This document shows positions 997 through 50,018 of a stretch of DNA of 51,529 nucleotides, one piece after another; position 1 is the stretch's first letter, and each line of letters begins with the position of its first letter. Under the pieces are notes generated by a model. The model saw only the letters and a program-made list of their open reading frames with translations. It did no database searches and was not told where the DNA came from. The DNA comes from an uncultured Bacteroidales bacterium (GTDB taxonomy: Bacteria > Bacteroidota > Bacteroidia > Bacteroidales > WCHB1-69): positions 1-51,529 of the forward strand of contig CAJOKR010000011.1 of NCBI GenBank assembly GCA_905235135.1, given 5' to 3'. The position numbers and the translations under genes were made by a program.

Positions 997-2412
997 ATGT
1001 CATACACCAACGAACAAATCACCGAAATCGTCGCGACCCAGCGCAAATTCTTCCGCACAGGCGCGACACTTCCAATCAAATGGCGAATACAACAGCTCAA
1101 GAAGCTAAAATCAGCCGTGATAGAACATGCCACCGAGTTTGAGGACGCACTGGCCGAGGATCTCGGACGCAGCCGCGTGGAGGCTTACCTCTGCGACGTA
1201 GGCCCCAACATCGTGGAAATCAACGAAATGATACGCGGACTACGGCGATGGGCACGTCCCGAAACGCACTTCAGCGGGTTGATGTGCTTTCCAAGCACCG
1301 TCACTAAAGTCTATAAGATGCCTTACGGCGTGTCGTTAGTCATCAGCCCCTTCAACTTCCCGATTCTGCTCACCATCGGGGTGGTGGCGGCGGCGATTTG
1401 CGGGGGCAACACCGTGGTTGTCAAGGCGAGCAGCAAGTCCGCTGCCTGCACCGAAGTGCTCAAACGCTTCTTCGCGGAGATTTTCCCGCCCGAGTACGTC
1501 ACCCTCATCGACGGCGGTCACGACGTGGCGGATATGTGCCTCGCCCAGCGTTTCGACAAGATCTTCTACACCGGCTCGCCCGCAGTGGGCAAGCACGTGA
1601 TGGCGGAAGCAGCCAAAAACCTCACCCCCGTGGCGTTAGAGTTGGGCGGCGAGACCGGCAACTGGTGCGTCGTGCGCAAGGATGCCGACCTCAAAGATGC
1701 GGCACGCAAAATCGCTTTCTTCAAGCTCTGCAACGCCGGACAGATTTGCATCAATATCAACCAAATAGCCGTGGCAGAAGAAGTTGCGGAACCTTTCTTG
1801 GAAGAATTGAAAAAAGCCTTCACGAAACAGATTGGCGAGCATCCAACCACCAATCCCGAATACCCGAAACTCATCACAACGGCAGCGTACGACAAGTGCG
1901 CGGCATTGGCTGACGAGTACCGCGAACGCATCGTCTTCGGCGGTGAGGGCGACCGCGAATCTCGCCGCTACTCCCCCACCCTCATCTACCCCGTCAACAA
2001 GGATGAGCACATCGTACTGCACGAGCTCTTCAACCCGCTACTGCCCGTGGTGCACTTCCCCGACGCGGAAATCGATGCTATGATGGAGACTATCGCCGAC
2101 CGTGAGCACCCGTTGGCAATGTACATATTCACCAAAGACATGCATTGGGCAAACCGCGTGATGCAGACCCAACAGTACGGTGGCGGCTGCATCAACGAAG
2201 TCTGCATCCACCTGATGGTCAAGGGTGTACCCTTTAACGGCACGGGCCATTCCGGTATGGGCGCATACCATGGCGAATGGGGCTTCCGCGAGTTTACGCA
2301 CCCTCAGACCGTCCTCAAAGGCCGCACCCGCTTCAACCTCACCCTGCGCGAGCATCCCTATACGGGAAAAGGCTCTTGGAAGTTGAAAATATTGCGGTTG
2401 TTCGAACGATAG
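997..2412 (+). CDS. Aldehyde dehydrogenase family protein
   Basis: NAD(P)-dependent oxidation of an aldehyde to an acid; 471 residues from the ATG at 997. Longer in-frame starts back to 895 overlap the SDR gene and add a non-conserved leader, so they were not used. The general-base Glu215 lies in LELGG and the nucleophile Cys251 in GQIC. The short N-terminus resembles class-3 (AlkH-like) enzymes. The usual K-S-P after ELGG is replaced by E-T-G, and the usual Arg after the catalytic Cys region is Gln (ININQ), so the cofactor site is atypical. The TAG stop at 2410-2412 lies inside a degenerate copy of the window's 28-bp palindrome. Probably co-transcribed with the SDR. Confidence 0.88.
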   Translation: MSYTNEQITEIVATQRKFFRTGATLPIKWRIQQLKKLKSAVIEHATEFEDALAEDLGRSRVEAYLCDVGPNIVEINEMIRGLRRWARPETHFSGLMCFPSTVTKVYKMPYGVSLVISPFNFPILLTIGVVAAAICGGNTVVVKASSKSAACTEVLKRFFAEIFPPEYVTLIDGGHDVADMCLAQRFDKIFYTGSPAVGKHVMAEAAKNLTPVALELGGETGNWCVVRKDADLKDAARKIAFFKLCNAGQICININQIAVAEEVAEPFLEELKKAFTKQIGEHPTTNPEYPKLITTAAYDKCAALADEYRERIVFGGEGDRESRRYSPTLIYPVNKDEHIVLHELFNPLLPVVHFPDAEIDAMMETIADREHPLAMYIFTKDMHWANRVMQTQQYGGGCINEVCIHLMVKGVPFNGTGHSGMGAYHGEWGFREFTHPQTVLKGRTRFNLTLREHPYTGKGSWKLKILRLFER

Positions 2413-2436
2413 AGACGCGCCAGGGCACGTATCCGA
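2410..2436. repeat. Degenerate family-1 palindromic element
   Basis: ATAGAGACGCGCCAGGGCAC followed by GTATCC matches the family-1 arms imperfectly. Its core is closest to the copy at 33415-33442. The first bases provide the TAG stop of the aldehyde dehydrogenase. Confidence 0.6.
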
Positions 2437-2475
2437 ACGGTGAAAATCGTGTGACGTGTGTATTCGAGAAATGCG

Positions 2476-2483
2476 TATCTTTG
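2476..2483 (+). promoter_or_regulatory. -7 promoter element of ffh
   Basis: TATCTTTG (TAnnTTTG consensus) followed by CCGCC, 62 bp before the ffh ATG. It lies in the only non-coding gap between the aldehyde dehydrogenase and ffh. Confidence 0.5.
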
Positions 2484-2545
2484 CCGCCGCTTTCCCGATT
2501 TGGGAAATATCAGATTTAGAATAGTTTATAATCAGCAATATAGCA

Positions 2546-3987: not shown

Positions 3988-4740
3988 CTACGCTTTCGTC
4001 TGATTCGCGACCCCCTCCTGTTTGGCCTTCAGCTCCTCATCGGAGAGGCCCAGGTAGCGGTCGCTGATCACCTGCATCTCGCTGTCGAGCTCCAGCAGGT
4101 AAGGCACGCCTGTGGGAATATTCAGCTTCACGATCTCTTCATTCGACATGTTCTTCATGAACTTGATGATACCGCGAATACTGTTGCCGTGGGCCACGAC
4201 CATCACCTGCTTGTATTGGCGCAGCGACTCCACAATGCTGACGTTCCACAGCGGAATGATACGCTTGGTGGCATCCATCAGCGATTCCGTGGCAGGACGG
4301 GCGGCCTTGAACTTGATGTCCTGATAGCGGATGTCGAATTTGGGATGGCGCGGGTCATCGTCGGCTAACGGTTCAGGCTCCACATCGTAGCTGCGACGCC
4401 ACTTGGTAACCTGTTCCTCACCATAGATTTCCACAGCCTGTTTCTTATTCTGTCCCTGCAATGCACCGTAGTGTTTCTCGTTCAGCCGCCAGGTCTTATA
4501 CACCGGCAACCACATCCGGTCCATCTCCTCCAAAACGTAGTTCAGCGTCTTGATGGCGCGTTTGAGGAAAGAAGTGTAGGTGTAACGAATATCCAGCCCC
4601 GGCTCGTCGCGCAGGATGCGGCCAGCCTGCTTAGCCTCCTCAATGCCTTGCGGCGTGAGATCCACATCCGTCCATCCGGTGAACTGGTTCGACAGATTCC
4701 ATTCGCTCTGTCCGTGTCTTATGAGTATGAGTTTGTACAT
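3988..4740 (-). CDS. gpmA: 2,3-bisphosphoglycerate-dependent phosphoglycerate mutase
   Basis: Interconverts 3- and 2-phosphoglycerate in glycolysis/gluconeogenesis. 250 residues, the normal dPGM length. The phosphohistidine motif RHGQSEWN is at residues 8-15 (His9 accepts the phosphate) and the second histidine lies in VVAHGNSIRG. The extra C-terminal region that separates dPGM from generic histidine phosphatases is present. The start follows the panD stop by 3 bp, so it is the last gene of a panC-panD-gpmA operon read leftwards, ending at the terminator shared with ffh. No functional link between pantothenate and mutase is implied beyond co-transcription. Confidence 0.95.
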   Translation of the reverse strand: MYKLILIRHGQSEWNLSNQFTGWTDVDLTPQGIEEAKQAGRILRDEPGLDIRYTYTSFLKRAIKTLNYVLEEMDRMWLPVYKTWRLNEKHYGALQGQNKKQAVEIYGEEQVTKWRRSYDVEPEPLADDDPRHPKFDIRYQDIKFKAARPATESLMDATKRIIPLWNVSIVESLRQYKQVMVVAHGNSIRGIIKFMKNMSNEEIVKLNIPTGVPYLLELDSEMQVISDRYLGLSDEELKAKQEGVANQTKA

Positions 4741-5088: not shown

Positions 5089-5120
5089 TTTTTTTATAAA
5101 GGTTATAGGTTATGAGGTAA

Positions 5121-5147
5121 TAGAGACGCAAAATTTTGCGTCTCTAC
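5121..5147. repeat. Family-1 palindromic element between panC and panD
   Basis: A perfect 26-bp palindrome, TAGAGACGCAAAA and its reverse complement, with centre AAATTT. It starts 9 bp beyond the panC stop. In the operon transcript it would form a hairpin. Confidence 0.9.
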
Positions 5148-5155
5148 AGTCTTCG

Positions 5156-5986
5156 TTAACAATAGCGGACGTTATCAATGAGGCGTACGGGGCCAACATA
5201 GACCGTGATGAATCCCATCACGCCGTGCGGGTTGTTGAGAGAGTCGGCGGTGAGGAGGGTTTCGGCATCGGCGAGTTCAAAATAGTCGAGCTGGAACTCG
5301 GGGATTCTGGCGATTTCGGTCTCCACAAACTTCTTGATTTCCGGCAAACTCTTGAACTGGCGGGATTCCTCGAGGATGCGGTGAATGTTGGCGGCCGTCT
5401 CGAACTCGTGGACGGAGAGGCGGCGGTTGCGGGAGCTCATGGCCAATCCGTTGGGCTCACGAACAATGGGACAAGGCACGATCTCGGCGAGGATACGGCA
5501 CTGGGCACACATCTCGCGGATGACGGCAATCTGCTGGTAGTCCTTCTCCCCGAAGTAAGCCTTATGCGGGCGCACCCATTCGAGCAGGCGACGCACGATG
5601 ACCCCCACGCCGTTGAAATGTCCCGGGCGGGCGGCACCTTCCATCACGTCGGCCACAGTACCGAAATCATAGACCTCAGTGGGAGCGACGGGGAAGACCT
5701 CCTCCACAGTCGGGGCAAAAACGTAGTCGGCCAAATCGCCGATAAGCTGCACGTCAGCGTCCAAAGTACGGGGATATTTCTCCAAATCTTCAGCGTTATT
5801 AAACTGCACGGGATTCACGAAAATGGAGCAGAACACCACGTCGTTTTCCTCGTGGGCGCGGCGGATGAGTGAGAGATGTCCCTCATGCAGGGCACCCATC
5901 GTGGGCACCATACCGATTGTTTTACCAGCAGCACGCTCGCGTACCGCGATGTCCATCAACTTCGCAACAGAATAGATAATTTCCAT
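5156..5986 (-). CDS. panC: Pantothenate synthetase
   Basis: ATP-dependent ligation of pantoate and beta-alanine. 276 residues, slightly under the usual 280-285. The class-I nucleotidyl-transferase HIGH-like motif is in VPTMGALHEGH (residues 27-37), FVNPVQF follows, and the KMSKS-like segment is AMSSRN. First gene of the leftward panC-panD-gpmA operon. A minus-strand TAnnTTTG element lies at 6042-6049, and the gap to the divergent response regulator is 157 bp of AT-rich DNA. panB is not in the window. Confidence 0.96.
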   Translation of the reverse strand: MEIIYSVAKLMDIAVRERAAGKTIGMVPTMGALHEGHLSLIRRAHEENDVVFCSIFVNPVQFNNAEDLEKYPRTLDADVQLIGDLADYVFAPTVEEVFPVAPTEVYDFGTVADVMEGAARPGHFNGVGVIVRRLLEWVRPHKAYFGEKDYQQIAVIREMCAQCRILAEIVPCPIVREPNGLAMSSRNRRLSVHEFETAANIHRILEESRQFKSLPEIKKFVETEIARIPEFQLDYFELADAETLLTADSLNNPHGVMGFITVYVGPVRLIDNVRYC

Positions 5987-6829: not shown

Positions 6830-7984
6830 TTATCCCCGCGCAGCGGCGACCACCACCTCCGCAGCCTTCGCAGAGGCGGAACCGTTGCCGAGCTTCGTGT
6901 AAAGTTCACTATACTGCGCTTTCATCGTGGAGATGCGAATTTCATCTTCCGTGATGAGGCGCAATTCTTTTTCCAACCGTTCCGGATTGTAGTCGTGCTG
7001 GATAAGTTCCGTCACGACAGGCGCGTCCATGATGAGGTTGGGCAGGGAAATGTAGTTGATTCCGGAAATCAAATGCTTGGCTATCAGGTAGGAAATCTCG
7101 CTGCCGGCATAGCAGACCACCTGCGGAGTGCCGATTATGGCAGTCTCCAACGTGGCGGTGCCGGAAGCCACAATCGCGGCCTTGGCATTCGCGACAAGCG
7201 CGTATGTGCTGCCACAGACCGTATGCACATTGCCGTTTTGTAGAGACGCACCATGGTACGTCTCTACAGGCAAATATTTGTCATACAGTTCTTTCGGCAA
7301 CCACGAAACCGTCGATACCACAAACTGGTACTGCGGAAAACGCTCCGCCATCATCAGCATCTGCGGAAGAATGGCACTAACCTCCTGCCGACGGCTGCCG
7401 GGCAGCAGGGCAATAATTTCGCGGTCGTCCAAATGATTGTCAGTCCTGAAATTGCGAACATCCGGGCGGTTGGGCAGGTCGCGGCTCACCGCATCCAAGA
7501 GCGGGTGCCCCACATAATGCACGTCCATGCCGTGTTTGGCGTAAAAGTCCTTCTCGAACGGCAGAATCACCATCATCTCATCCACATCGCGCTTAATCTG
7601 CTTGATGCGGCCTTTCTTCCACGCCCAAATCTGCGGGGAAATGTAATAAACGACCTTGAGGTGTTGTTCCTTGGCGAACTGGGCGATGCGCAGGTTGAAA
7701 CCAGGATAGTCCACCAGCACCAGCACGTCCGGCTTCCAGTTGAGGATGTCGGCCTTGCAGCGTTTGATGTTGCCGAGCACGGTGCGTAGGTTTACGAACA
7801 CCTCCCAAAATCCCATGAAGGCCATCTCACGATAGTGCATAAACAGCTCTACACCAGCCTGATGGGAAAGATCACCGCCGCAGCCTCGAAACTGGGCTTC
7901 AGGGTTCTTCTCCCGGATGGCTTTAATGAGGTTGGAGGCGTGCAGATCGCCCGACGCCTCGCCCGCCACGATATAGTACCGCAT
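6830..7984 (-). CDS. lpxB: Lipid-A-disaccharide synthase
   Basis: Condenses UDP-2,3-diacylglucosamine with lipid X to form the lipid A disaccharide at the inner membrane. 384 residues. N-terminal GEASGDLH (8-15), central VDYPGFNLRIA, QIWAW and LPGSRRQEV, and C-terminal SGTATLETA are all family hallmarks. The odd part is residues 240-249 (VETYHGASLQ). They are encoded by a copy of the 28-bp palindrome (7240-7267) inserted in frame in the linker between LPGSRR and SGTATLE. Downstream of yqeY with a 2-bp gap, so likely co-transcribed with it. Confidence 0.95.
   Translation of the reverse strand: MRYYIVAGEASGDLHASNLIKAIREKNPEAQFRGCGGDLSHQAGVELFMHYREMAFMGFWEVFVNLRTVLGNIKRCKADILNWKPDVLVLVDYPGFNLRIAQFAKEQHLKVVYYISPQIWAWKKGRIKQIKRDVDEMMVILPFEKDFYAKHGMDVHYVGHPLLDAVSRDLPNRPDVRNFRTDNHLDDREIIALLPGSRRQEVSAILPQMLMMAERFPQYQFVVSTVSWLPKELYDKYLPVETYHGASLQNGNVHTVCGSTYALVANAKAAIVASGTATLETAIIGTPQVVCYAGSEISYLIAKHLISGINYISLPNLIMDAPVVTELIQHDYNPERLEKELRLITEDEIRISTMKAQYSELYTKLGNGSASAKAAEVVVAAARG
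7240..7267. repeat. Family-1 palindromic element inside lpxB
   Basis: Arms GTAGAGACG and CGTCTCTAC flank a palindromic ACCATGGT core, with one mismatched pair. It is read in frame in lpxB as V-E-T-Y-H-G-A-S-L-(Q). Confidence 0.92.
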
Positions 7985-8511: not shown

Positions 8512-8537
8512 AATGTATATCAATCATTAACTATTTT

Positions 8538-8581
8538 CCCACCTCCATTCCGCCTGACGTTAGGAGGGCGGAACCTCGAAC
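8538..8581 (+). repeat. Family-2 hairpin element, copy A
   Basis: CCCACCTCCATTCCGCC, then loop TGACGTTAGGA, then GGGCGGAA and CCTCGAAC. The TTCCGCC/GGCGGAA arms form a hairpin. Nearly the same unit occurs at 43988-44031 and, inverted, at 12791-12829. Confidence 0.8.
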
Positions 8582-12766: not shown

Positions 12767-12829
12767 GAGCTGCGTGCCCTGGCGAGTCGGAGATTCCGTC
12801 CTCTTTACGTCGGACGGAATGTAGGTGGG
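12767..12829 (-). repeat. Family-2 hairpin element, inverted copy C, with possible family-1 remnant
   Basis: Read on the minus strand, 12791-12829 gives CCCACCTACATTCCGTCC, a short loop starting GACGT, then GGACGGAAT, matching copies A and D. The TTCCGTCC/GGACGGAA arms are perfect. Immediately beside it, 12769-12789 (GCTGCGTGCCCTGGCGAGTC) resembles a decayed family-1 core; that part is uncertain. Confidence 0.65.
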
Positions 12830-15905: not shown

Positions 15906-16267
15906 TTAATCGTTTTGCCTTGCTCTATACTTCTGTCTAGGATGATTGGGGATGCTCTCATACATTTTTTCAAGAATATCTGTCATTCGAGGCAAGACTT
16001 CGTTTCCAAGATAATTCCTATCTCGTTCAATAAAAGAGGATATATCATCCAGTGTGCGCCATTCAGTACAATAATCAAGAATTTTTTTCTTAACTCTTCC
16101 TTTGAATAATGTCTTTTTGTGGTTGCAACCTTTTGATCCGAGGTTGCAACCTTTTGGTTTGAGGTTGCAACCTTTCGGTCCGAAGTTGCAACCTTTTGAC
16201 TCGAGGTTGCAACCTTTCCCATTTGAGGCATGTCAACACCATACAAATGATGTTTTTGAAAGTGCAA
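15906..16267 (-). pseudogene. Frameshifted C-terminal remnant of an AAA-4/AlbA-type DNA-binding protein
   Basis: On the minus strand from about 16267 the frame reads five KVATS(D/S)xx repeats, then YSKEELRKK. After that a one-base loss in an A7 run (plus-strand T7 at 16082-16088) breaks it. Restoring one A continues as ILDYCTEWRTLDDISS, then NYLGNEVLPRM and IPNHPRQKYRA to a TAA at 15906-15908. This is the winged-helix C-terminus typical of Bacteroidota ATP-binding, Schlafen/AlbA-like regulators (family assignment from memory). The N-terminal domains are absent: upstream the sequence switches to an unrelated gene remnant on the other strand. Confidence 0.65.
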
Positions 16268-18044: not shown

Positions 18045-18356
18045 GGGCATAGAGTTACAGAGTCACAAGTTCCATGATCACGTTATAACGTGTGATTATT
18101 ATCAATTATCGTTTAAATGTTGCAATCCATCGTAGGGTATTTTTTGAATTATCCTTTGTAACAATCATAAAGCATAGGTTTCTTTAAGGACAAGACACTT
18201 TGTTTCCCGCAGACCAAAACAACGCTTCTTTCTGATGAACAAAAAAACAGTCAATCAAAGAGTCATCCGATTCAGACTACAACACCATTTAAAACAATGT
18301 AGAGACGCACGGCCGTGCGTCTCTACAACATTATATAGGGTTATAAAATCCGAAGA
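18045..18356. other. 312-bp intergenic region between the zinc-ribbon gene and ppdK
   Basis: No protein-like frame is convincing here. It holds a 14-bp perfect palindrome CACGTTATAACGTG (18079-18092, within ATCACGTTATAACGTGTGAT) just after the zinc-ribbon gene, which could be a weak terminator or an operator. It also holds a perfect family-1 element at 18299-18326 beyond the ppdK stop. The remainder is AT-rich with nothing recognisable. Confidence 0.6.
18299..18326. repeat. Family-1 palindromic element downstream of ppdK
   Basis: A perfect 28-bp palindrome with arms GTAGAGACG/CGTCTCTAC and core CACGGCCGTG. It lies 30 bp beyond the ppdK stop. Confidence 0.95.
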
Positions 18357-21080
18357 TTATTTCCCGGCCTTGATGGCAGCCTGGGCGGCAGCCAAACGTG
18401 CGACGGGCACGCGGAACGGGGAGCAGGAGACATAGTTCATACCTGCATTATAGAAGAACTCGGCAGCCGTCGGGTCGCCACCGTGCTCGCCGCAGACACC
18501 GCACTTGAGGTTGGGACGGGTGGAGCGGCCGCGCTGAATGCCGGTCTGCACCAGTTCGCCTACGCACTCGCGGTCGAAGGAGTTGAACGGGTCGGCGGGG
18601 ATGATTTTCTCATCGACGTATGTCTTCACGATGGCATTCACGTCGTCGCGGGAGAAGCCGAAGGTCATCTGGGTAAGGTCGTTGGTACCGAAGCTGAAGA
18701 ACTCGGCCACCTCGGCGATCTGGTTGGCGACCAGTGCGGCGCGCGGAATCTCGATCATGGTGCCGAACTTGTACTCGAACGGAATGCCGTAGGCTTTCTC
18801 GACCTCTTCCTTCACCTCCGTGGCGATAGCCTTCTGGTGGCGCAGCTCGGCGGCGTTAATGGTCAGCGGAACCATGATTTCGAGCATCGGGTGCAGGCCT
18901 TCCTTCATCAACTCAACGGTGGCACTGAACAGGGCTCGGAACTGCACGCGGGTGATTTCGGGATAGATGATGCCGAGACGCACGCCGCGAAGACCCATCA
19001 TCGGGTTCACCTCGTGGAGCGACTCCACGCGCTTCTTCACATCCTCGTAGCTGATGCCGAGACGCTGGGCGGCCTCTTTCATCTTGGCCTCACCCTGCGG
19101 GGCGAACTCATGCAACGGGGGATCCATCAGACGGAAGGTCAGCGGTTTGCCATCCATCACCTTGAGGGTACCCTTGGCGGCTTCCTTGATGTAAGGCTCC
19201 AGCTCGTTGAGGGCGGCGATACGCTCCTCTTTCGTGTCGGAGAGAATCATGTTGCGCAGCTTCTCCAGCGGTTTCTCGCTGTTCTTGCCGTAGAACATGT
19301 GCTCGATACGGAACAGACCGATACCCTCGGCACCGAAGTTGACGGCGTTCTGAGCATCTTCCGGAGTATCAGCGTTGGTGCGGACACCCATGGTGCGGTA
19401 TTTGTCAACTAACTTCATGAATTCCACGAAGAGCGGATTCTCAGTGGCGTCAATCATCTTGACTTCCTCGCCATAGACCCAACCCTTAGAGCCATTCAAG
19501 CTGAGGATGTCGCCTTCCTTGAAGGTCTTGCCGTCGATGGTGACGGTGCGGGCTTCCATGTCGATCTTGATGGCATCGCAACCCACGATACAGCACTTAC
19601 CCCAGCCACGAGCCACGAGAGCAGCGTGGGAGGTCATACCGCCGCGAGCGGTCAGAATGCCGGTAGCAGCGCGCATACCCTCCACATCTTCAGGGTTGGT
19701 TTCCTCGCGGACGAGGATGTTTTTCACCTTATTGGCGGTGTAAGCCATAGAGGTTTCGCTGTCGAAGGCGATTTTACCGACGGCACCGCCAGGACCTGCG
19801 GGCAGACCCTTCGCGATGACGCTGTGCTTCTTCTCGTCAGCGGCATCCAAAATCGGGTGCAGCAGTTCGTCGAGCTGGGCGGGAGCCACGCGGAGCACCA
19901 CTTCCTTCTCGTCGATGAGGCCTTCGTGCAACATGTCGAGAGCCATGGTCATAGCGGCAACACCGGTACGTTTACCAACGCGGCACTGCAGCATATAAAG
20001 TTTGCCCTCTTGGATGGTGAACTCGATATCGAGCATGTCGTGATAGTTCTTCTCCAAGATGTTGCGGATGTCGCAGAGTTCCTTGTAGGTCTCGGGCATC
20101 AGCTCCTGCATGGAGTGCATCATCTTGTTCTGCTCGTTCTTGGTCTCGTCGTTCAGCGGGTTGGGGGTACGGATACCGGCCACCACATCCTCGCCTTGGG
20201 CGTTGATCAACCATTCGCCATAGAACTGATTGTCGCCGGTAGCGGGGTTACGGGTGAAAGCAACGCCGGTAGCGGAGTTGTCGCCCATGTTGCCGAACAC
20301 CATAGCCTGCACGTTGACGGCGGTACCCCAATCATCGGGGATGCCCTCAATGCGGCGGTAAGCGATAGCCTTCTTGCCATTCCAGCTCTTGAACACGGCC
20401 TTGATGCCGCCTTCCATCTGGGCGCGAGCATCATCGGGGAACTCGGTACCGAGCACCTCTTTCACCTTGGTTTTGAAATTCTCGGCCAAAATCTTGAGCT
20501 CGTCAGCGGTGATTTCCGTATCGCTCTTGTAGCCACGAGCGGCCTTGAATGCGTCAAGCATGTCATCCAGCTGTTTGCGGATGCCCTTGCCGTCGGCGGG
20601 CTCGATGCCTTCGGATTTCTCCATCACGACATCGGCGTACATCATGATCAGACGACGGTAGGAGTCATACACGAAACGGGGGTTGTTGGTCTTCTTGATG
20701 AGTCCGGGGATAGTCTTGGAGCTCAGACCGATATTGAGGACGGTGTCCATCATGCCGGGCATGGAGCTACGGGCGCCGGAGCGGCAGGAGACGAGCAGCG
20801 GGTTCTCCGGATCGTCGTATTTGAGACCCATGATGGCCTCCACATTCTTCATTCCGGCCCAAACCTCGTCCATGAGGCCTTCGGGGAGCTGGCAGTTGTT
20901 GGCGTAATACGCCGTGCAGCATTCCGTGGTGATGGTCAGACCCGCAGGAACGGGCAAGCCCAGTAAGCACATTTCAGCCAAGTTGGCGCCTTTACCGCCC
21001 AACAAGTTCTTCATGTCCGCCTTACCTTCGGCCTTTTTTCCGCCAAAAGTATAGACATACTTCACATCATTCTTTGTCAT
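18357..21080 (-). CDS. ppdK: Pyruvate, phosphate dikinase
   Basis: Reversibly converts pyruvate, ATP and Pi to PEP, AMP and PPi; in anaerobic Bacteroidota it serves glycolysis/gluconeogenesis. 907 residues from ATG 21080 (MTKNDVKYVYTFGGK). The frame extends to 21206, but those 42 codons run through the promoter and are not conserved. The N-terminal ATP-grasp region has GGKGANLAEM, SCRSGARSSMPGMMDT and GVAFTRNP. The swivelling phosphohistidine is His485 in GGMTSHAALVARG. The C-terminal PEP/pyruvate barrel ends with SFGTNDLTQMTFGFSRDD and the catalytic Cys in CGVCGEHGGDP. Complete and monocistronic. Confidence 0.97.
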   Translation of the reverse strand: MTKNDVKYVYTFGGKKAEGKADMKNLLGGKGANLAEMCLLGLPVPAGLTITTECCTAYYANNCQLPEGLMDEVWAGMKNVEAIMGLKYDDPENPLLVSCRSGARSSMPGMMDTVLNIGLSSKTIPGLIKKTNNPRFVYDSYRRLIMMYADVVMEKSEGIEPADGKGIRKQLDDMLDAFKAARGYKSDTEITADELKILAENFKTKVKEVLGTEFPDDARAQMEGGIKAVFKSWNGKKAIAYRRIEGIPDDWGTAVNVQAMVFGNMGDNSATGVAFTRNPATGDNQFYGEWLINAQGEDVVAGIRTPNPLNDETKNEQNKMMHSMQELMPETYKELCDIRNILEKNYHDMLDIEFTIQEGKLYMLQCRVGKRTGVAAMTMALDMLHEGLIDEKEVVLRVAPAQLDELLHPILDAADEKKHSVIAKGLPAGPGGAVGKIAFDSETSMAYTANKVKNILVREETNPEDVEGMRAATGILTARGGMTSHAALVARGWGKCCIVGCDAIKIDMEARTVTIDGKTFKEGDILSLNGSKGWVYGEEVKMIDATENPLFVEFMKLVDKYRTMGVRTNADTPEDAQNAVNFGAEGIGLFRIEHMFYGKNSEKPLEKLRNMILSDTKEERIAALNELEPYIKEAAKGTLKVMDGKPLTFRLMDPPLHEFAPQGEAKMKEAAQRLGISYEDVKKRVESLHEVNPMMGLRGVRLGIIYPEITRVQFRALFSATVELMKEGLHPMLEIMVPLTINAAELRHQKAIATEVKEEVEKAYGIPFEYKFGTMIEIPRAALVANQIAEVAEFFSFGTNDLTQMTFGFSRDDVNAIVKTYVDEKIIPADPFNSFDRECVGELVQTGIQRGRSTRPNLKCGVCGEHGGDPTAAEFFYNAGMNYVSCSPFRVPVARLAAAQAAIKAGK

Positions 21081-21124
21081 TTTCAAATAGTTTTGGATAA
21101 AAATTATTATTCTAAAAACGGCCG

Positions 21125-21132
21125 CGAAAATA
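21125..21132 (-). promoter_or_regulatory. -7-like promoter element of ppdK
   Basis: Plus-strand CGAAAATA reads TATTTTCG on the minus strand, one base off TAnnTTTG, 45 bp before the ATG at 21080. Confidence 0.45.
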
Positions 21133-21214
21133 CAAAAAAAGTGGGTACGATTCCCCATAATCCTGAAACTTTTTTCACGGCAGCTCAGCTGTAAATAAAC
21201 ACACAAAAAAAGTG

Positions 21215-24721: not shown

Positions 24722-24725
24722 CCGC

Positions 24726-24884: not shown

Positions 24885-25502
24885 ATGTTGTTAAAGATAT
24901 ACCCTGAGAATCCGAACCCAAAAGCCGTGAACACCGTGGTGGAGTGTTTGCGGGATGGCGGCATCGTCATTTACCCGACCGACACGATTTACGGCATCGG
25001 GTGCGACATTTTCAAGCAGAAGAGCATCGAGCGCATCATCTCCATCCTCGGCGAGAAGAAGAAAAAGGACTCGCTGACGTTCATCTGCCACGACATGAGC
25101 AACCTGTCTGACTACACCAAACCGCTGGACAACAGCGTGTTCAAGACGATGAAACGGGTATTGCCGGGACCGTACACCTTCATCCTCGAAGCCAACAACA
25201 GCGTGCCGAAACTGCTGCAGAGCAACAAGAAGACCGTCGGTATCCGTATTCCCGACAACAACATCATCCGCGAGATTGTGCGACAGCTCGGCCACCCCAT
25301 CCTCTCCACCTCCGTGAAAGACGACGACGAGGTCATCGAATACACAACCGACCCCGAGCTCATCTACGAACGTTACGGCGACATGGTCGATATCGTCATC
25401 AACGGCGGCTACGGCGACAACACACCTTCCACCGTGGTGGATTGCACTGGCGGCGGAATTGAGGTTGTTCGTGAAGGGAAGGGCGATATCACCCTTTTGT
25501 AG
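24885..25502 (+). CDS. L-threonylcarbamoyladenylate synthase
   Basis: Sua5/YciO/YrdC-family enzyme making threonylcarbamoyl-AMP from threonine, bicarbonate and ATP for the t6A37 tRNA modification. 205 residues, the short YrdC-like form without the Sua5 C-terminal domain. YPTDTIYGIGCD is at 30-41, followed by KRPxxKxx-equivalent EKKKKDSLTFICHDM, LPGPYTFIL, VGIRIPDN and the closing STVVDCTGG. Product chemistry links to tcdA (8610), which acts on the same tRNA position. The TAG stop (25500-25502) lies within a family-1 palindrome. Confidence 0.93.
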   Translation: MLLKIYPENPNPKAVNTVVECLRDGGIVIYPTDTIYGIGCDIFKQKSIERIISILGEKKKKDSLTFICHDMSNLSDYTKPLDNSVFKTMKRVLPGPYTFILEANNSVPKLLQSNKKTVGIRIPDNNIIREIVRQLGHPILSTSVKDDDEVIEYTTDPELIYERYGDMVDIVINGGYGDNTPSTVVDCTGGGIEVVREGKGDITLL

Positions 25503-25526
25503 AGACGCAAAATTTCGCGTCTCTAC
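25499..25526. repeat. Family-1 palindromic element at the end of the Sua5/YwlC gene
   Basis: Arms GTAGAGACG/CGTCTCTAC around a near-palindromic CAAAATTTCG core. It provides the TAG stop codon of the upstream gene and ends 35 bp before mnmE. Confidence 0.92.
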
Positions 25527-28760: not shown

Positions 28761-28788
28761 GTAGAGACGCAAAAATTTGCGTCTCTAC
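28761..28788. repeat. Family-1 palindromic element between the TPR gene and the thioesterase
   Basis: Arms GTAGAGACG/CGTCTCTAC with A/T-rich core CAAAAATTTG; 16 bp from the TPR gene stop and 29 bp from the thioesterase start. Confidence 0.93.
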
Positions 28789-33414: not shown

Positions 33415-33442
33415 GTAGAGACGCGCCATGGCACGTCTCAAC
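33415..33442. repeat. Family-1 palindromic element downstream of uvrA
   Basis: GTAGAGACG arm, core CGCCATGGCA, right arm CGTCTCAAC with one arm mismatch. It ends 9 bp beyond the uvrA stop. Confidence 0.88.
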
Positions 33443-33451: not shown

Positions 33452-36289
33452 TTAACGTAATTCTTTCGCGAGGTACTCCGCCGTGAAACCAACCCCCTGA
33501 CGGACAATGTCTTCGGGGGTTCCAGTGGCCACAATCTCGCCGCCGCTGCGACCGCCTTCGGGACCCATGTCGATGATCCAGTCGGCCATCTTGATGACAT
33601 CCATGTTGTGCTCAATCACGATGACCGTGTTACCCTTCTCCACCAGCTTGTTCAGCACGTCAAGGAGAATAGCGATATCTTGGAAATGCAGTCCTGTGGT
33701 GGGCTCATCAAGGATATAGACGGTGCTGCCAGTGTCCTTCTTCGACAATTCCGCCGCCAACTTGATGCGCTGCGCCTCACCACCGGAGAGCGTCGTGGAG
33801 GGCTGTCCGAGCTTCAGGTAGCCGAGGCCCACGTCGTCCATGGTTTTGAGCTCGCGCACGATAAGCGGAATGTTCTCGAAGAACTCGATGGCCTGGCTGA
33901 TATCCATCTCCAAAACGTCGTTGATGGACTTGCCCTTGTAGCGAATCTCCAGCGTCTCGTCGTTGTAGCGCTTGCCACCGCATTTGTCACAGGTGACATA
34001 CACATCGGGGAGGAAGTTCATCTCGATGGTCTTCACACCAGCGCCCTTGCACTCCTCGCAACGACCGCCCGTCACATTGAAGGAGAACCGACCAGGCTTG
34101 TAGCCTCGAATCTTGGACTCCGGCATCTGCGTGAAGAGCTTACGAATATCCTCAAACACACCCACATACGTCGCCGGATTGGACCTCGGCGTGCGTCCGA
34201 TGGGCTGTTGATTGATGTCAATGACTTTGTTGATATGTTCCAAACCGACCACATCCTTGTACGGCAACGGTTTCTTCTCAGAACGGTAAATATAATGGTT
34301 CAGAATGGGATAGAGCGTCTCGTTGATAAGCGTCGATTTGCCACTGCCGGAAACGCCCGTCACGCAGATGAGCGTCCCGAGCGGGAACTCCACGGTGACA
34401 TTTTTGAGGTTGTTACCCGTCGCACCAATCACAGTCAGCCATTCGCCACTACCCTTGCGCCGCTGTTTCGGCACCTTGATTTTCTTCTTTCCTTTAAGAT
34501 AATCAGCTGTCAACGAGCCGCTTTTGAGAATCTCCCGATATGTACCGGAGGCTACGATCTCGCCACCATACTCGCCTGCCGCAGGACCCACATCCACGAT
34601 GTAGTCGGCGGCTTTCATCATGTCGCGGTCGTGTTCCACCACAATGACGGAGTTGCCCATGTCGCGCAGACTGCGCAGGGAGTTGATGAGGAAGTGGTTG
34701 TCGCGCTGGTGCAACCCGATACTCGGCTCATCGAGGATGTACATCACGTTGACGAGCTGCGAGCTGATCTGGGTGGCCAACCGGATGCGCTGCGCCTCAC
34801 CGCCCGACAGCGATGCCGACGAACGGTCGAGCGACAGATATTGCACGCCCACATTGCAGAGAAATTCCAACCGGAAGGTGATTTCGCGCAGGATTTCGCT
34901 GGCGATGTGCCGTTTCGCGGGATCGAGATGTGGCGGCAAAGCTTTGCACCAGGCCAACAGTTCCGCCATATCCAGATGCGCCAACTCGGCGATGTTTTTG
35001 TCGAGAATGCGAAAGTGAAGCGATTCCGTGCGCAAACGTGCACCGTGGCAGTGCGGGCACGGGATAGTGTTCACAAACTGCGAGATCCACTTCCGGAACG
35101 ATGCCGGCATGGCCTCCTCATTGAGGTTTCCGAGGAAGTTGACGACACCTTCGAAGGTCTTGCGCATCGGCGACAGTCCTTCCACCTCGCGTTTTACTTG
35201 CAGAATCTCCGTCGTGCCATACAGCACCGCATTCAGCTGCTGCTCGCTCAGGTTCTTGATGGGCTCGGTCATGGAGAAACTACACTTTTCCGCCAGCGCA
35301 TCCAACGTCCTGAACAACAGCGTGTTTTTGTATTCTCCGAGAATGGCGATACCACCGGCCTTGATGGATTTGTTGCGGTCGGGAATCACCTTGTCGATAT
35401 CAATCTCCGTGATACTGCCGAGACCGTTGCAATACTCGCACGCGCCGTAGGGCGAATTGAACGAGAAGGTGTTGGGCTCGGGCTCCGGATAGGAGATGCC
35501 GGTAGTCGGGCACATCAAGAACTTGCTGTAGTTCTTCACCTCTTTCGACTCATTGTCGAGGATCATGAGGGCGCCCTTGCCGTACTTCATCGCAATCTGC
35601 ACGCTGTTGGAGAGCCGCTTCTGCGAATAGTCCGACACCGTGAGGTTATCCACCGACAGCTCAATGTCGTGGATTTTGTAGCGATCGACCTGCATCCCCA
35701 TCAACAGGGGCTTCATCACGCCATCCACGCGGACGCGGGTGAACCCTTGCTTGCGGATATTCTCGAACAGCTCGCGGTAATGGCCCTTGCGGCGTTTTAC
35801 CACGGGCGCGAGCAGGGTGACGGAACGACCCTTGTAGCGTTCCAGAATAAGGTCGATAAGTTCCTTTACGGAATAATGGACCATCTTCTCCTCGGTGTTG
35901 TAGGAGTAAGCATCGGCCACGCGGGCGTATAGAAGTCGCAGGAAATCATACACTTCCGTGACGGTGCCCACCGTAGAACGCGGGTTTTTGTTCACCGTCT
36001 TCTGCTCAATGGAAATCACAGGATTAAGACCGGAGATCTTATCCACGTCGGGATGCTCCATGTTGCCAATGAAATGGCGGGCGTAAGCGGAGTAGGTCTC
36101 CATATATCGGCGCTGACCTTCAGCGTAAATCGTGTCAAAGGCGAGCGACGACTTACCGCTCCCGCTCAGTCCGGTGATGACCACCAACTGCTGCTGCGGG
36201 ATCGTAAGTGACACATTTTTAAGGTTGTTCTCACGCGCACCGGTGACAACCAAGGCATCCTCGGCCTCTGCGTTCTTCTCCTTTTTCAC
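33452..36289 (-). CDS. uvrA: Excinuclease ABC subunit A
   Basis: Damage-sensing ATPase of nucleotide excision repair. 945 residues, standard. First ATPase: GLSGSGKSS (40-48) and a signature LSGGEAQRIRLATQI. Second ATPase: GVSGSGKST, a zinc module CEECKGAG...CDKCGGKRY, and LSGGEAQRIKLAAEL. The first zinc module is degenerate: CPTT rather than CPxC, then CEYC. I believe this is usual in Bacteroidota but cannot check here. Complete gene with its own promoter at 36317-36344. A family-1 palindrome sits 9 bp after the stop. Confidence 0.97.
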   Translation of the reverse strand: MKKEKNAEAEDALVVTGARENNLKNVSLTIPQQQLVVITGLSGSGKSSLAFDTIYAEGQRRYMETYSAYARHFIGNMEHPDVDKISGLNPVISIEQKTVNKNPRSTVGTVTEVYDFLRLLYARVADAYSYNTEEKMVHYSVKELIDLILERYKGRSVTLLAPVVKRRKGHYRELFENIRKQGFTRVRVDGVMKPLLMGMQVDRYKIHDIELSVDNLTVSDYSQKRLSNSVQIAMKYGKGALMILDNESKEVKNYSKFLMCPTTGISYPEPEPNTFSFNSPYGACEYCNGLGSITEIDIDKVIPDRNKSIKAGGIAILGEYKNTLLFRTLDALAEKCSFSMTEPIKNLSEQQLNAVLYGTTEILQVKREVEGLSPMRKTFEGVVNFLGNLNEEAMPASFRKWISQFVNTIPCPHCHGARLRTESLHFRILDKNIAELAHLDMAELLAWCKALPPHLDPAKRHIASEILREITFRLEFLCNVGVQYLSLDRSSASLSGGEAQRIRLATQISSQLVNVMYILDEPSIGLHQRDNHFLINSLRSLRDMGNSVIVVEHDRDMMKAADYIVDVGPAAGEYGGEIVASGTYREILKSGSLTADYLKGKKKIKVPKQRRKGSGEWLTVIGATGNNLKNVTVEFPLGTLICVTGVSGSGKSTLINETLYPILNHYIYRSEKKPLPYKDVVGLEHINKVIDINQQPIGRTPRSNPATYVGVFEDIRKLFTQMPESKIRGYKPGRFSFNVTGGRCEECKGAGVKTIEMNFLPDVYVTCDKCGGKRYNDETLEIRYKGKSINDVLEMDISQAIEFFENIPLIVRELKTMDDVGLGYLKLGQPSTTLSGGEAQRIKLAAELSKKDTGSTVYILDEPTTGLHFQDIAILLDVLNKLVEKGNTVIVIEHNMDVIKMADWIIDMGPEGGRSGGEIVATGTPEDIVRQGVGFTAEYLAKELR

Positions 36290-40767: not shown

Positions 40768-40776
40768 ACTTATATA

Positions 40777-40889
40777 GGTTTAAGGTTTAAGGTTTAAGGT
40801 TTAAGGTTTAAGGTTTAAGGTTCAAGGTTCAAAGTTTAAGGGTTAAGGGTCAAAGGTTCGTTCTCCTTAAACCATAAACCATAAACCTT
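40777..40889. repeat. Tandem 7-bp TTTAAGG repeats with inverted partner
   Basis: About six perfect units of AGGTTTA (40777-40820) and further degenerate ones to about 40858. Inverted units (CCTTAAACCATAAACC) follow at 40865-40889. Fills the 125-bp gap between the deoC start and the PorV/PorQ stop. Confidence 0.85.
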
Positions 40890-40892
40890 AAA

Positions 40893-41972
40893 CTATTTTT
40901 TGAATTTATCGATGTTCACTTTCAAGGAAACAATATGCGAGTACTGCGCGATGGAGAGGTTGCCCAAGTCGGTGAATGCGTAGTCGATGGCCACCACATT
41001 CTTGATGTTCACCCCCACCCCGAAGTTAATCTGCAGGGTGGTCTTCATCTTGCCGTCGAAGTCGGGCTCGCGCTGGAAGTTGCCGATGCCCATTCGCAAC
41101 GCCACGATCTTCTTGTAGTCGAATTCCATCCCAAAATGCGGATCTATGCTGATGACATTGCTCTTAATCAGAGTATTACGTTTACCATCGAAGGTACAAT
41201 CCAATCCCAACGCGAAGGTGCCGTGGAAGCCCTTCCCGAAATGCACGGTCTTGCCGCCGCCCAACAGCAGCGCGGGAACGGTCAGTTCCAGGTCGTTTTC
41301 GGGAATCTCATTGCCCGTCTCCTCAAAAACAGCAATCACATCGTCGGTGAGCGAGTAGCGCCACGCATTGAAGGTGGAGGTACCGTCGCGCAACATCACG
41401 CCTGCCTGCCAGCCCTTGCGGTTGTACATCAGTCCGAAGTCGAGCCCGAAACCCCACGACTTCGCAAACTGTCCGATTTTGCGGTGTATGATCTTCGCAT
41501 TTGCACCCACCGACAACCCAGGCACCTGCGGGAAAGCATACGCATAACTCAGCAGGAAGGCGTTGTCGGCGGCGGAGAAGTAGGTAATCCTGTCGTAATC
41601 CACATTTCCTTGATCGTCAATCAATTGCGTAGTGTTCATAATGTTATCGACCCCGAAGCGGATGTAGGAAAAGGCCACAGCCTGGTTGGAATCGATTTTG
41701 AAGCCGATGCCGCCGTAGTCGTATTTGGCAATGCCTGCGAAGTACTCGGCGTGCATCAGCGCGAGCTGGTAGCGTTTGTCCATACGGGTCAGTCCGGCGG
41801 GATTCCAGTAAGCGGAGGTCACGTCATCGGTGATGGCGCACATCGTGTTCGCCATACCGAGCCCTCGCGCACCGAGTCCTAAAGACAGGAACTCGTTGCT
41901 GTACTTGTTCTGCGCATGTCCACCCAACACAGCCGCCAGCGACACCATCATTATGAACAGATTACGCTTCAT
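40893..41972 (-). CDS. PorV/PorQ-family outer-membrane protein
   Basis: 359 residues with a signal peptide (cleavage near HA-Q at 20-21) followed by FLSLGLGARGLGMANTMCAITDDVTSAYWNPAGL, the N-terminal block shared by PorV/PorQ (type IX secretion) and the FadL-like barrel family. The rest alternates beta strands ending NIDKFKK. It may be a T9SS component or a paralogue; no other T9SS gene is adjacent. Overlaps the methyltransferase by 4 bp and is read after it, so the two are coupled. Confidence 0.82.
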   Translation of the reverse strand: MKRNLFIMMVSLAAVLGGHAQNKYSNEFLSLGLGARGLGMANTMCAITDDVTSAYWNPAGLTRMDKRYQLALMHAEYFAGIAKYDYGGIGFKIDSNQAVAFSYIRFGVDNIMNTTQLIDDQGNVDYDRITYFSAADNAFLLSYAYAFPQVPGLSVGANAKIIHRKIGQFAKSWGFGLDFGLMYNRKGWQAGVMLRDGTSTFNAWRYSLTDDVIAVFEETGNEIPENDLELTVPALLLGGGKTVHFGKGFHGTFALGLDCTFDGKRNTLIKSNVISIDPHFGMEFDYKKIVALRMGIGNFQREPDFDGKMKTTLQINFGVGVNIKNVVAIDYAFTDLGNLSIAQYSHIVSLKVNIDKFKK

Positions 41973-43170: not shown

Positions 43171-43198
43171 GTAGAGATGCAAAATCTTGCGTCTCTAC
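43171..43198. repeat. Family-1 palindromic element at the dolichol-P-mannose-synthase-like 3' end
   Basis: Arms GTAGAGATG/CGTCTCTAC with core CAAAATCTTG; one arm position and part of the core are mismatched. The CTA at 43195-43197 is the reverse complement of that gene's TAG stop. Confidence 0.88.
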
Positions 43199-43947
43199 TG
43201 ATTCTGCTTCGCCCGATTATCCACCCGTTCCCATTTCCGGAACCAGCTGCGGATTTTCAGACCGATGACGCCGAAGATGGCTTCGCGGAAGATGCCGGAG
43301 CTCATCTTAGAGACGCCTTCCGTGCGGTCTTTGAAAATGATGGGAACCTCCACGATCTTGAAGCCTAACTTCCAAGCCGTGAACTTCATCTCAATCTGGA
43401 AACCGTAGCCGATATGTTTGATCTTGTCGAAATCGATGGCGTTGAGGGTGTCGGCGCGATAACAGACGAAGCCAGCGGTGGTGTCCTTCACGGGCACGCC
43501 CAGGACCGTGCGCACGTATGCGGAGCCATAATACGACATCAGCAGACGCCCCATCGGCCAGTTCAACACATTGACTCCCTGACAGTAACGGGAGCCCACG
43601 GCTACATCGGCGTTCTGCGTCTCGCAGGCATCGTACAGCCGTTGCAGGTCGTGCGGGTCGTGCGAGAAGTCAGCATCCATCTCGGTGAAATAGTCGTAGT
43701 CACGCTTCAAGCCCCACTTGAAACCGTGGATGTATGCGGTGCCCAAGCCCAACTTACCGGTGCGCTCCTCCAAAAAGAGCCGCCCCTCAAACTCAGGCAT
43801 CAGCGACCTCACAATGTCGGCCGTACCATCCGGCGAGTTGTCATCTATTATTAATATATGTACATCAATCAATCCGAAAATCGCCCGGATGATATTCTCG
43901 ATGTTCTCTTTTTCCTTATACGTAGGAATAATGACTAACCTTTTCAT
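43195..43947 (-). CDS. Polyprenol monophosphomannose synthase-like glycosyltransferase
   Basis: 250-residue GT-2 enzyme of the DPM1 family: transfers mannose (or another hexose) from a nucleotide sugar to a polyprenyl phosphate on the cytosolic face of the membrane. Metal and donor motifs are DDNSPDGT (35-42) and MDADFSHDP (90-98). KLGLGTAYIHGFKWGL and the RxxRR-equivalent C-terminus are typical. No transmembrane helix, as in soluble DPM1. The TAG stop is contributed by a family-1 palindrome, so the C-terminal residues (RAKQNQ) may not be ancestral. Confidence 0.92.
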   Translation of the reverse strand: MKRLVIIPTYKEKENIENIIRAIFGLIDVHILIIDDNSPDGTADIVRSLMPEFEGRLFLEERTGKLGLGTAYIHGFKWGLKRDYDYFTEMDADFSHDPHDLQRLYDACETQNADVAVGSRYCQGVNVLNWPMGRLLMSYYGSAYVRTVLGVPVKDTTAGFVCYRADTLNAIDFDKIKHIGYGFQIEMKFTAWKLGFKIVEVPIIFKDRTEGVSKMSSGIFREAIFGVIGLKIRSWFRKWERVDNRAKQNQ

Positions 43948-43987
43948 ATTATCAATTATTTACTTTTTACTCTAAAGAAACCAATTC

Positions 43988-44031
43988 CCCACCTCCATTC
44001 CGGCCGACGATAGGAGGCCGGAATCTCGAAC
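43988..44031 (+). repeat. Family-2 hairpin element, copy D
   Basis: CCCACCTCCATTCCGGCC, loop GACGATAGGA, then GGCCGGAAT and CTCGAAC. The ATTCCGGCC/GGCCGGAAT arms pair perfectly; 26 bp from the EEP gene stop. Confidence 0.85.
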
Positions 44032-48726: not shown

Positions 48727-48747
48727 ATCCTAACCGAGATTCGGCGG

Positions 48748-48755
48748 CAAAAGTA
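48748..48755 (-). promoter_or_regulatory. -7 promoter element of the MBL gene
   Basis: Plus-strand CAAAAGTA reads TACTTTTG on the minus strand, 22 bp before the start. Confidence 0.55.
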
Positions 48756-48829
48756 CATAAAATACGAACATGCTCAACGGAGGCTTTCGCGGCGAGAATG
48801 CGGCAACTCCTCTGCACAGCAAAAAAATG

Positions 48830-48837
48830 TACCTTTG
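48830..48837 (+). promoter_or_regulatory. -7 promoter element of the ATP-grasp-like gene
   Basis: TACCTTTG followed by CCGCC; it puts the transcript start after the in-frame ATG at 48798 and supports the start at 48879. Confidence 0.55.
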
Positions 48838-48878
48838 CCGCCGATTCTCCCGCATCGGAGAACAGAAAAGGACACCCG

Positions 48879-50018
48879 ATGGAAATTCTCATCTTCAACC
48901 CCGAACACGACTACGCGCTGGCAGACAACCAGCCGCAATATGTCACGCTGCGGTCGGCGGCGCAATTCGCCTACGACTGCGCCCCGTTCATGCGATATCT
49001 GACCGATAATGAAGCGTTTGTGCTGGATGCATACCGTCCTTTCGGGAAGGAGTTCCAGAAGAATTTCGACCCGATGGAGGATGCGGAACGAATCACGAAG
49101 GTGACCCCGTGGGGCTGGGATTCAGCGGTAGTCTATCAGCTGCGGCGGATTGGGATTGCAGAAAAGCTGCTGCCAACGGATGCGCAGCTGTCGAAACTTC
49201 GAGACTTAGCGCATCGCAAAACCGCCATCACCGCGATGGAGTTCTTGCGCGAAAAGCACCCTCATCCGGAACGCCTGCCCTTGCCTCCGTCATACTTAAC
49301 AGAGTTCCAACAAGTTGAGGATTTTGTGAAACAGATTCCCGATGTCCTTTTCAAATCGCCGTACTCGGGCAACGGTCGCGGGCACCTCTACGCGCACGGC
49401 ACGTGTACGCCCACGCTCCTACGCCAGTGCGCGGGCGTGATTCGGCGGCAAGGCGGTCTCATCGCGGAACGGATGTATGCGGTGGTCCAGGACTTTGCGA
49501 TGGAGTTCCGCTGCCACGACGGGCAGGCGGACTTTCTCGGCTATTCGCTCTTCCGCACCGAACATTACGGCTACGGCGGCAACCAGCTAATGCCCGACGA
49601 TGCGATACTGTCAGTGCTATCGCAATACATTGACACCCAAGAGATTCTACAAATCCAAGTCCTCGTCCGGGATTTCCTGCACCAGCACATCGCACCCCAT
49701 TACGACGGCGTGGCGGGGGTCGATATGTTTGTCTATCAGGAGGATGGCGCCTACCAGCTGCACCCCTTCGTGGAGGTGAACCTCCGCATGACGATGGGAT
49801 TGGCCGCACACGAGATTTTCCGCCGGCACTGCCATCCTGAGGCGCGGGGAACGTTCAGGATTGTGCGGGGGGATGTAGAGACGCAATGCATTGCGTCTCT
49901 ACAAACGGAAATGCAATTGCGTGACGGCCTGTGGTGGTCCGGGACGGCAGTGCTGAACCCAGTGACAGAAAAGACAGGGTATGCCGTAGTGGTGAATTTT
50001 ACCGACGCACCCAAATAA
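48879..50018 (+). CDS. Uncharacterised protein with ATP-grasp-like C-terminal motifs
   Basis: 379 residues from ATG 48879 (MEILIFNPEHDYALADN); the frame to 48798 runs through the promoter. No signal peptide. I do not know a named family. FKSPYSGNGRGHL resembles an ATP-grasp glycine loop, and GVDMFVYQEDG...HPFVEVNLRMTMG resembles the metal-binding Asp and Glu-x-Asn that close the ATP site in such ligases. This is inference from motif order. Residues 333-342 (VETQCIASLQ) are encoded by a perfect family-1 palindrome inserted in frame. The next gene is korA, but with a separate promoter. Confidence 0.72.
   Translation: MEILIFNPEHDYALADNQPQYVTLRSAAQFAYDCAPFMRYLTDNEAFVLDAYRPFGKEFQKNFDPMEDAERITKVTPWGWDSAVVYQLRRIGIAEKLLPTDAQLSKLRDLAHRKTAITAMEFLREKHPHPERLPLPPSYLTEFQQVEDFVKQIPDVLFKSPYSGNGRGHLYAHGTCTPTLLRQCAGVIRRQGGLIAERMYAVVQDFAMEFRCHDGQADFLGYSLFRTEHYGYGGNQLMPDDAILSVLSQYIDTQEILQIQVLVRDFLHQHIAPHYDGVAGVDMFVYQEDGAYQLHPFVEVNLRMTMGLAAHEIFRRHCHPEARGTFRIVRGDVETQCIASLQTEMQLRDGLWWSGTAVLNPVTEKTGYAVVVNFTDAPK
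49875..49902. repeat. Family-1 palindromic element inside the ATP-grasp-like gene
   Basis: A perfect 28-bp palindrome, arms GTAGAGACG/CGTCTCTAC, core CAATGCATTG. Read in frame as V-E-T-Q-C-I-A-S-L-(Q), the same frame as in lpxB. Confidence 0.95.

Follow-up and report, generated by a model that had tools for sequence, protein, structure and literature searches.

Double-foot REP palindromes of a Bacteroidales genome: different hairpins within the same boundary at orthologous sites

Introduction

Double-foot repetitive extragenic palindromes (REPs), and REPs that lie within the transposase gene to which they belong, have been reported for TnpAREP subclass 2.4, or group 4 of the REP-associated tyrosine transposases (RAYTs) (PMC6006769; Quentin et al., 2018; what is said here of this and the other cited papers refers to the parts of each that were available). 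The mechanism of REP dissemination was stated as not known in 2013 and again in 2021 (PMC3686654; PMC8266576). Here we describe a 28 bp palindrome that is dispersed through contig CAJOKR010000011.1 (C11) of an uncultured Bacteroidales bacterium (assembly GCA_905235135.1; G000 in our survey). The stretch analysed, positions 1 to 51,529 of the forward strand, is referred to below as the window. The palindromes are, with high confidence, double-foot REPs that are non-autonomous and are spread by a RAYT of group 4 (subclass 2.4), the gene for which very probably sits elsewhere in the genome of this bacterium. This reading is based on their high copy number, their placement at gene 3' ends, their physical association with one RAYT clade, the extent to which core class follows RAYT lineage, and the presence of differing cores and arm families at the same boundary. 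What is new is that the boundary is constant at orthologous sites although the core differs, in some cases together with the arms; this makes REP spread and class change an answerable question.

The palindromes resemble those of subclass 2.4 (PMC6006769) in pairing a 5' GTAG with a 3' CTAC, in flanking the transposase gene and in lying in frame between its HUH and tyrosine motifs; the enzyme shares the WQ motif and a tyrosine helix of the YIxNN type, and the host range likewise takes in Cyanobacteria, Bacteroidetes and scattered phyla. Unlike in that description, one arm pair is common to many core classes, and classes are exchanged at exact sites away from the transposase gene. A REP 'orthoswitch' has been reported in Pseudomonas and Stenotrophomonas (PMC3686654), in which the REP class also changes at an orthologous locus and each class is tied to a RAYT; that switch concerns REPs flanking the RAYT gene, whereas the present one affects ordinary dispersed sites. 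The GTAG-tagged REPs of PMC3733652 share the GTAG end, the small palindrome, the placement at 3' ends and occasionally within genes, and the RAYT association. Their tag is defined as unpaired and at one end, whereas GTAG here pairs with CTAC, and neither GTAGAGAC nor TCTCTAC occurs in the main text of that paper as available. Elements of this kind, and class switching of REPs that flank RAYT genes, are thus already in print. We found no published account of exact-site class switching at ordinary loci, which is a weak negative from a partial literature search. None of the papers listed for the arm sequences was relevant. The dRS3 repeats of Neisseria consist of constant arms around a variable centre, and the present palindromes are alike in this. 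They are unlike dRS3 in their end tag and in their tie to transposase genes: dRS3 is classed as CGTC-1, and the CGTC repeats are described without transposase-gene association (PMC3733652).

Copy number, range and placement

The hairpin is 28 bp long and self-complementary, with GTAG at its start and CTAC at its end, in line with the GT[AG]G 5' end and complementary C[TC]AC 3' end on a long hairpin of subclass 2.4. Eight copies stand in the window, each with a core of 10 bp. Five have exact arms (7240, 18299, 25499, 28761 and 49875, against none in 100 shuffles) and three have one arm mismatch (5120, 33415 and 43171). An earlier reading of the window from its letters alone (the sequence-only reading) had counted about nine; its copy at 2410, which actually starts at 2409, is a decayed remnant at best (2409..2436), pairing at 8 of 14 positions and resembling the CGCCATGGCA class. 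All palindrome coordinates are given without strand.

Copies are also present elsewhere in the genome: its 118 contigs hold 192 with exact arms, against none for a reversed-arm control. Across the 36 genomes of the genus that were surveyed, this one included, exact-arm copies were found in 34, at 0 to 244 per genome (copy counts from these pattern searches are complete and copy positions cover part of the copies). Among the matches listed, the arms occur in records titled Bacteroidetes or Bacteroidales, Nostoc, Calothrix and other Cyanobacteria, as well as in Anaerolineae, Chloroflexaceae, Spirochaetales, Planctomycetaceae, Geobacter and candidate phyla records, and the core CGCCATGGCA is present in Planktothrix rubescens; this contig scan gives range across phyla rather than frequency, and many of the records are metagenome bins and possibly misassigned.

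The placement of 71 elements with at most two arm mismatches was read against genes called with a simple codon score. The intergenic elements comprise 48 between co-directional, seven between convergent and four between divergent genes; three lie at edges and nine are inside genes, compared with 3153 of 4000 random positions. A gene 3' end lies within 30 bp for 44 of the 62 distances measured (median 12 bp), and two genes in the window have their stop codon within an element foot. The elements therefore have the properties of REPs in general, being of high copy number, dispersed, mostly extragenic and near gene 3' ends.

RAYT genes that carry the hairpins

Searches of the genome for Y1 and RAYT proteins listed no match on C11, in agreement with the sequence-only reading, which saw no transposase in the window. 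The same reading had called the element non-autonomous and REP-like and had suggested looking for a RAYT; its likely mobiliser class can now be named, and one gene of the RAYT clade lies on another contig (G000:C86:47-634). It carries a REP with the CAAAATTTTG core within its reading frame and a second CAAAATTTTG approximately 160 bp downstream. The protein has 197 residues and the motifs PNHIH, WQ and YIENNV (V for P), which compare with NH[IFV]H, WQ and YIxNNP in about 194 residues for group 4 (subclass 2.4).

Two overlapping sets of loci associate the palindromes with this clade. In the first, an element lies inside the gene or within 150 bp at seven of 11 RAYT-clade loci, compared with none of 53 other Y1 loci (Fisher, 6e-7; L018 and L295 are one gene and were counted once). 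In the second, which spans the Bacteroidales, this holds for 22 of 30 RAYT loci, with 1.62 elements per kb nearby compared with 0.18 per kb further away. An element was counted if it belonged to any of four arm families and had no more than two arm mismatches. Both sets were fetched by score, the second by score alone with a profile that had been built partly from RAYTs first spotted beside palindromes. REPs thus stand beside the transposase gene, as described for group 4. At L336, L359, L326 and L357 an identical core occupies at least two of the upstream, inside and downstream positions. Many, not all, of the RAYT genes hold a REP in frame between the HUH and tyrosine motifs, also as in subclass 2.4; by reading, its site is the variable region that separates the tyrosine helix from the HUH histidines, and it encodes a VET...SL or DAINRVST-like peptide. 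Examples from other phyla include RAYTs of Planktothrix (L130), a Chloroflexi bin (L136) and an Uhrbacteria bin (L113).

All 30 aligned RAYTs match NF047646 at an E value of 0.01 or better, and 19 match PF01797. Both His residues, the Tyr, the Gln and the last Asn are invariant among them, and the Trp is conserved in at least 90%. A RAYT profile search finds Escherichia coli TnpAREP (4er8), which is also the best fold match (E value of 8e-7, TM-scores of 0.56 and 0.60) of a model of the L054 protein, the gene for which has an open reading frame. This model is a modest one (seven sequences, pLDDT of 72.9, pTM of 0.71), and its low-confidence part is the linker, residues 96-115.

Other candidates for the mobiliser were rejected. 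Ordinary IS200-type Y1 transposases are represented by the 53 non-clade loci above, none of which has an element inside or within 150 bp. Y1 proteins matching PF01797 occur in 53 of 60 relatives, and among 34 such loci an exact palindrome lies within approximately 1.5 kb at only two and a degenerate one at two. Two further RAYT-like genes of the same genome, L018 and L019, have no element near them. L018 (G000:C94, 51-1253) joins a RAYT-like transposase domain and a death-on-curing/Fic-like domain in a single reading frame (78 bits to NF047646 and 30 bits to TIGR01550). L019 (G000:C20, 1399-2160) has near-identical peptides encoded at both ends (GGAAFLPQN...FRQECR), which suggests flanking copies of another repeat family.

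Core classes

The cores were compared in 411,827 bases of the genome, made up of the window and of stretches picked because they contain copies. Of 49 exact-arm copies, 29 have a fully self-complementary core, and over all copies the core bases pair at 219 of 245 positions. When each of the 25 distinct cores is taken once, 102 of 125 pairs match, compared with a mean of 41.7 and a maximum of 60 in 2000 shuffles, which bears out the earlier statement that most cores are self-complementary. That the cores differ completely between copies was, however, overstated. There are 47 ten-base cores flanked by exact arms. Seven consensus cores, read in either orientation, account for 31 of them; another 11 deviate by a single base and the other five by more. 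The main classes are CAAAATTTTG (the commonest, with 10 copies), CAATGCATTG, CACGGCCGTG and CGCCATGGCA, the last of which retains an internal C/A mismatch in many copies. The same arms carry other cores in other species.

The compensatory change proposed by the sequence-only reading is mostly unsupported. Eleven of the 16 non-consensus cores are single changes and are therefore uncompensated; three are two-base variants, one of which (CACCATGGTA from CGCCATGGCA) is a compensated change from G-C to A-T. The core is thus not free but falls into discrete palindromic classes; whole palindromes are probably copied, and compensation is for the most part the wrong description. Covariation in a dispersed palindrome family can accordingly reflect the copying of whole hairpins rather than structural selection in place.

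The classes largely follow the RAYT tree, which was built from the 30 RAYTs with the linker columns left out. Labels were assigned by hand from the core beside or inside the gene, and the classes take in variants that differ by one base as well as the forms GTAGAGCCG and GTAGGGGCG. The 24 labelled rows require 13 changes among 13 states, compared with a shuffled mean of 18.5, and none of 300 shuffles reached so small a number. When four near-identical orthologues are left out, the count is again 13, compared with 15.4 (three of 300 shuffles). The four RAYTs with the CACGGCCGTG core, one of which has it in a form altered by one base, make up a single supported clade; they come from different genomes and from more than one family.

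A second palindrome family has the same build (GTAGGGGCG-AATAATTATT-CGCCCCTAC), with 11 copies in this genome and occurrences in 29 of 60 genomes. At L321 (G044:C217) the hybrid cores TTGCATGCGGG and CCCGCATGCAA look as if halves had been exchanged between two palindromes; genome G044 holds both TTGCATGCAA and CCCGCATGCGGG.

Different hairpins at orthologous sites

Orthologous sites were compared for 154 elements from 13 genomes, with the flanks anchored at the element ends. At a strict threshold 54 pairs were obtained, of which 21 have the same core (at least eight of ten bases, in either orientation) and 33 have different cores. For the 45 strict pairs with ten-base cores, identity is 94% in the arms and 58% in the core. 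At a looser flank threshold, to which the scrambled-flank control belongs, 105 of 17,354 real comparisons pass compared with 36 of 60,000 with scrambled flanks. The 54 pairs fall into 13 site clusters, and more than one class is read in ten of these, in three of them through a decayed copy. The sequence-only reading had suggested looking for presence or absence at such sites; beyond polymorphism of that kind, different cores stand within the same orthologous boundary.

By reading, the clearest locus has a stop codon on one side and a terminator-like hairpin on the other, and a double-foot REP stands at the same place in all ten genomes for which the locus was available. Nine carry an element of the GTAGAGACG type, with eight core sequences that group as six classes (the arms are degenerate in G000), and the tenth, G009, has GTAAGGCTG...CAGCCCTAC instead. 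The flanks are orthologous up to the feet in the nine genomes and look alike in the tenth. Between G006 and G020 the flanks are 97% identical, while the cores agree at three of ten bases; a core one base from that of G006 stands at two other G006 sites (among approximately 50 of 125 copies listed).

Three sites in the window add to this picture. The site orthologous to 18299 has an identical core in G012 and different cores in G013, G026, G020 and G006. At 25499 the same core class is carried by G013 and G026, and at 33415 the core is CATAATTATC in G013, while G012 has a decayed element of the GTAGGGGCG family. Arm families differ at the clearest locus, at window position 33415, at L207:10451 (with weaker flank scores) and at a coding site that, by reading, encodes a C-terminal domain like that of the type IX secretion system (T9SS). 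This T9SS-like site holds different arm families in different genomes and in paralogues (L223:18691, L224:4207, L259:4454 and 10070, L248:465 and L250:8406).

Clean empty sites, from which insertion ends could have been read, were also sought. Flanks were tight in 38 of 269 'empty' comparisons, but in many of these 38 the site was occupied by a palindrome that had decayed or was of another family, or the match was due to chance in coding sequence (for example L240), and the approach was rejected.

Possible exchange of hairpins

Groups 2 and 3 of the RAYTs are known to use a folded, single-stranded hairpin as their substrate, group 4 being outside those tested (PMC8266576), and the earlier suggestion of a copying mechanism acting on structure was to that extent right in spirit. 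By analogy with those enzymes and with subclass 2.4 (PMC6006769), the RAYT would recognize the folded single strand through the GTAG foot and the stem. As in other members of the family, it would probably then cut at the foot and rejoin, so copying whole hairpins, and the core, being largely class-specific, would travel as a block. A REP of another class may in turn take the place of a resident one, the GTAG and CTAC feet defining the boundaries; this would account for block-wise change of the core with self-complementarity kept. Replacement of REP for REP in place is the best reading of the switched sites, but it is an uncertain one. We suggest only tentatively that the group 4 RAYTs themselves perform the swap, cutting the resident REP at both feet and putting in one of a different class. 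Loci would then serve as fixed docking sites, and the enzyme gene would carry its cognate hairpin in frame. If this were true, hairpins would be swapped over evolutionary time in long-lived slots, and the core would be an address specific to the enzyme.

A number of observations weigh against these readings. As regards the enzyme, the RAYT of this genome scores 39.1 bits, below the NCBIfam cutoff of 80 bits for NF047646, and matches no Pfam family at an E value of 0.01; its internal REP is without a left foot, and its downstream REP is part of a longer tandem. Eight of the 30 RAYT loci have no element nearby, and some of the counted elements are weak, with two arm mismatches. The classes CGCCATGGCA and CGATTAATCG each occur on two separate RAYT branches. 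In the genus, RAYT presence (E value below 1e-40; 20 genomes with and 16 without, from incomplete assemblies) is not predictive of copy number (Mann-Whitney p = 0.16). As regards replacement, the site pairs are not independent, one of the 13 clusters mixes paralogues, and 21 strict pairs keep their core, including that between window site 25499 and G026. Replacement is read from end states, with which independent insertion may also be compatible.

Such insertion could reflect hotspots, whereby the sites, most of which closely follow a stop codon, repeatedly attract REPs and species gained different classes independently at the same base. The clustering of elements at gene 3' ends fits this proposal, as do the different arm families of the T9SS-like coding site and five checked copies that adjoin half-palindromes, as if inserted beside or into older ones. 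However, the preference for outside bases is weak, being clear at the first two positions only (62% A, then 49% A, in 130 flanks), which is too little to steer ten insertions to one base, and the flanks of the clearest locus are orthologous up to the feet in nine genomes and similar in the tenth. We regard hotspot insertion as less likely than not.

Gene conversion, in which homologous recombination or template switching between dispersed copies would rewrite the core via the common arms, is rather doubtful. Half-and-half cores, namely those of G044 and GATAATTATG in G013, are what exchange at the dyad should produce, and the presence elsewhere in G006 of a core one base from the new one also fits. 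The arms, however, offer only 9-10 bp of homology, and swaps also occur between differing arms (GTAGAGACG with GTAGGGGCG or a GTAGGGCTG-like form), which counts against arm-mediated conversion. A third possibility, corresponding to the main reading of the earlier analysis, is that selection on RNA or DNA structure, for instance in terminators or at mRNA 3' ends, acts through compensatory mutation in steps or through hairpin-templated correction. This would suit the pairing kept across classes, the position at gene 3' ends and the compensated variant CACCATGGTA, but is very improbable given the single uncompensated changes within classes, the uncorrected C/A mismatch of CGCCATGGCA and the change of cores as blocks at 97% flank identity, the last of which already disfavours it.

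Copies in the window and other features

Most copies in the window adjoin the 3' end of a gene. That at 5120..5147 has the core CAAAATTTTG and an altered first base in its left foot (ATAG), and stands 8 bp from the 3' end of the pantoate-beta-alanine ligase gene (5156-5986, minus strand). The copy at 18299..18326 (core CACGGCCGTG, exact arms) is 30 bp from that of a gene for a phosphoenolpyruvate-utilizing, PPDK-like enzyme (18357-21206, minus strand), and that at 28761..28788 (core CAAAAATTTG, one change from CAAAATTTTG) is 16 bp from that of a tetratricopeptide-repeat protein gene (28805-32053, minus strand). At 33415..33442 a copy with the core CGCCATGGCA and one arm mismatch lies 9 bp from the end of uvrA (33452-36289, minus strand). 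Two copies reach the stop codon itself: 25499..25526 (core CAAAATTTCG, one change from CAAAATTTTG) supplies the TAG stop of a Sua5/YrdC gene (24885-25502), and 43171..43198 (core CAAAATCTTG, with a single mismatch in the arms) extends into the stop codon of a gene for a glycosyltransferase (43195-43947, minus strand).

The remaining two copies, both with exact arms, lie in frame within genes. The copy at 7240..7267 (core CACCATGGTA) codes for VETYHGASL in lpxB (6830-7984, minus strand), and a length difference falls there when the protein is aligned with solved LpxB. The copy at 49875..49902 (core CAATGCATTG) codes for VETQCIASL in an open reading frame without a Pfam match (48798-50018, plus strand).

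Several other features were noticed. A Bacteroidales small signal recognition particle RNA occupies 24719-24827 of the window (Rfam RF04183, 94.7 bits), a match that assigns the DNA to the Bacteroidales. A run of AGGTTTA-type 7-mers extends over 40776-40893, with an inverted counterpart at 40865-40893, and 21-nt repeats containing GGTTGCAACC are arranged head to tail at 16116-16220. Positions 8529-8581, 43979-44031 and 12790-12829 hold a longer dispersed repeat of 53 nt (85% identity), which has an inverted partner and no relation to the palindromes. Outside the window, dispersed repeats of approximately 80-200 bp with many matches in the relatives searched occur at L207:3283-3375 and 4072-4182, L224:9147-9275 and L222:4796-5016.

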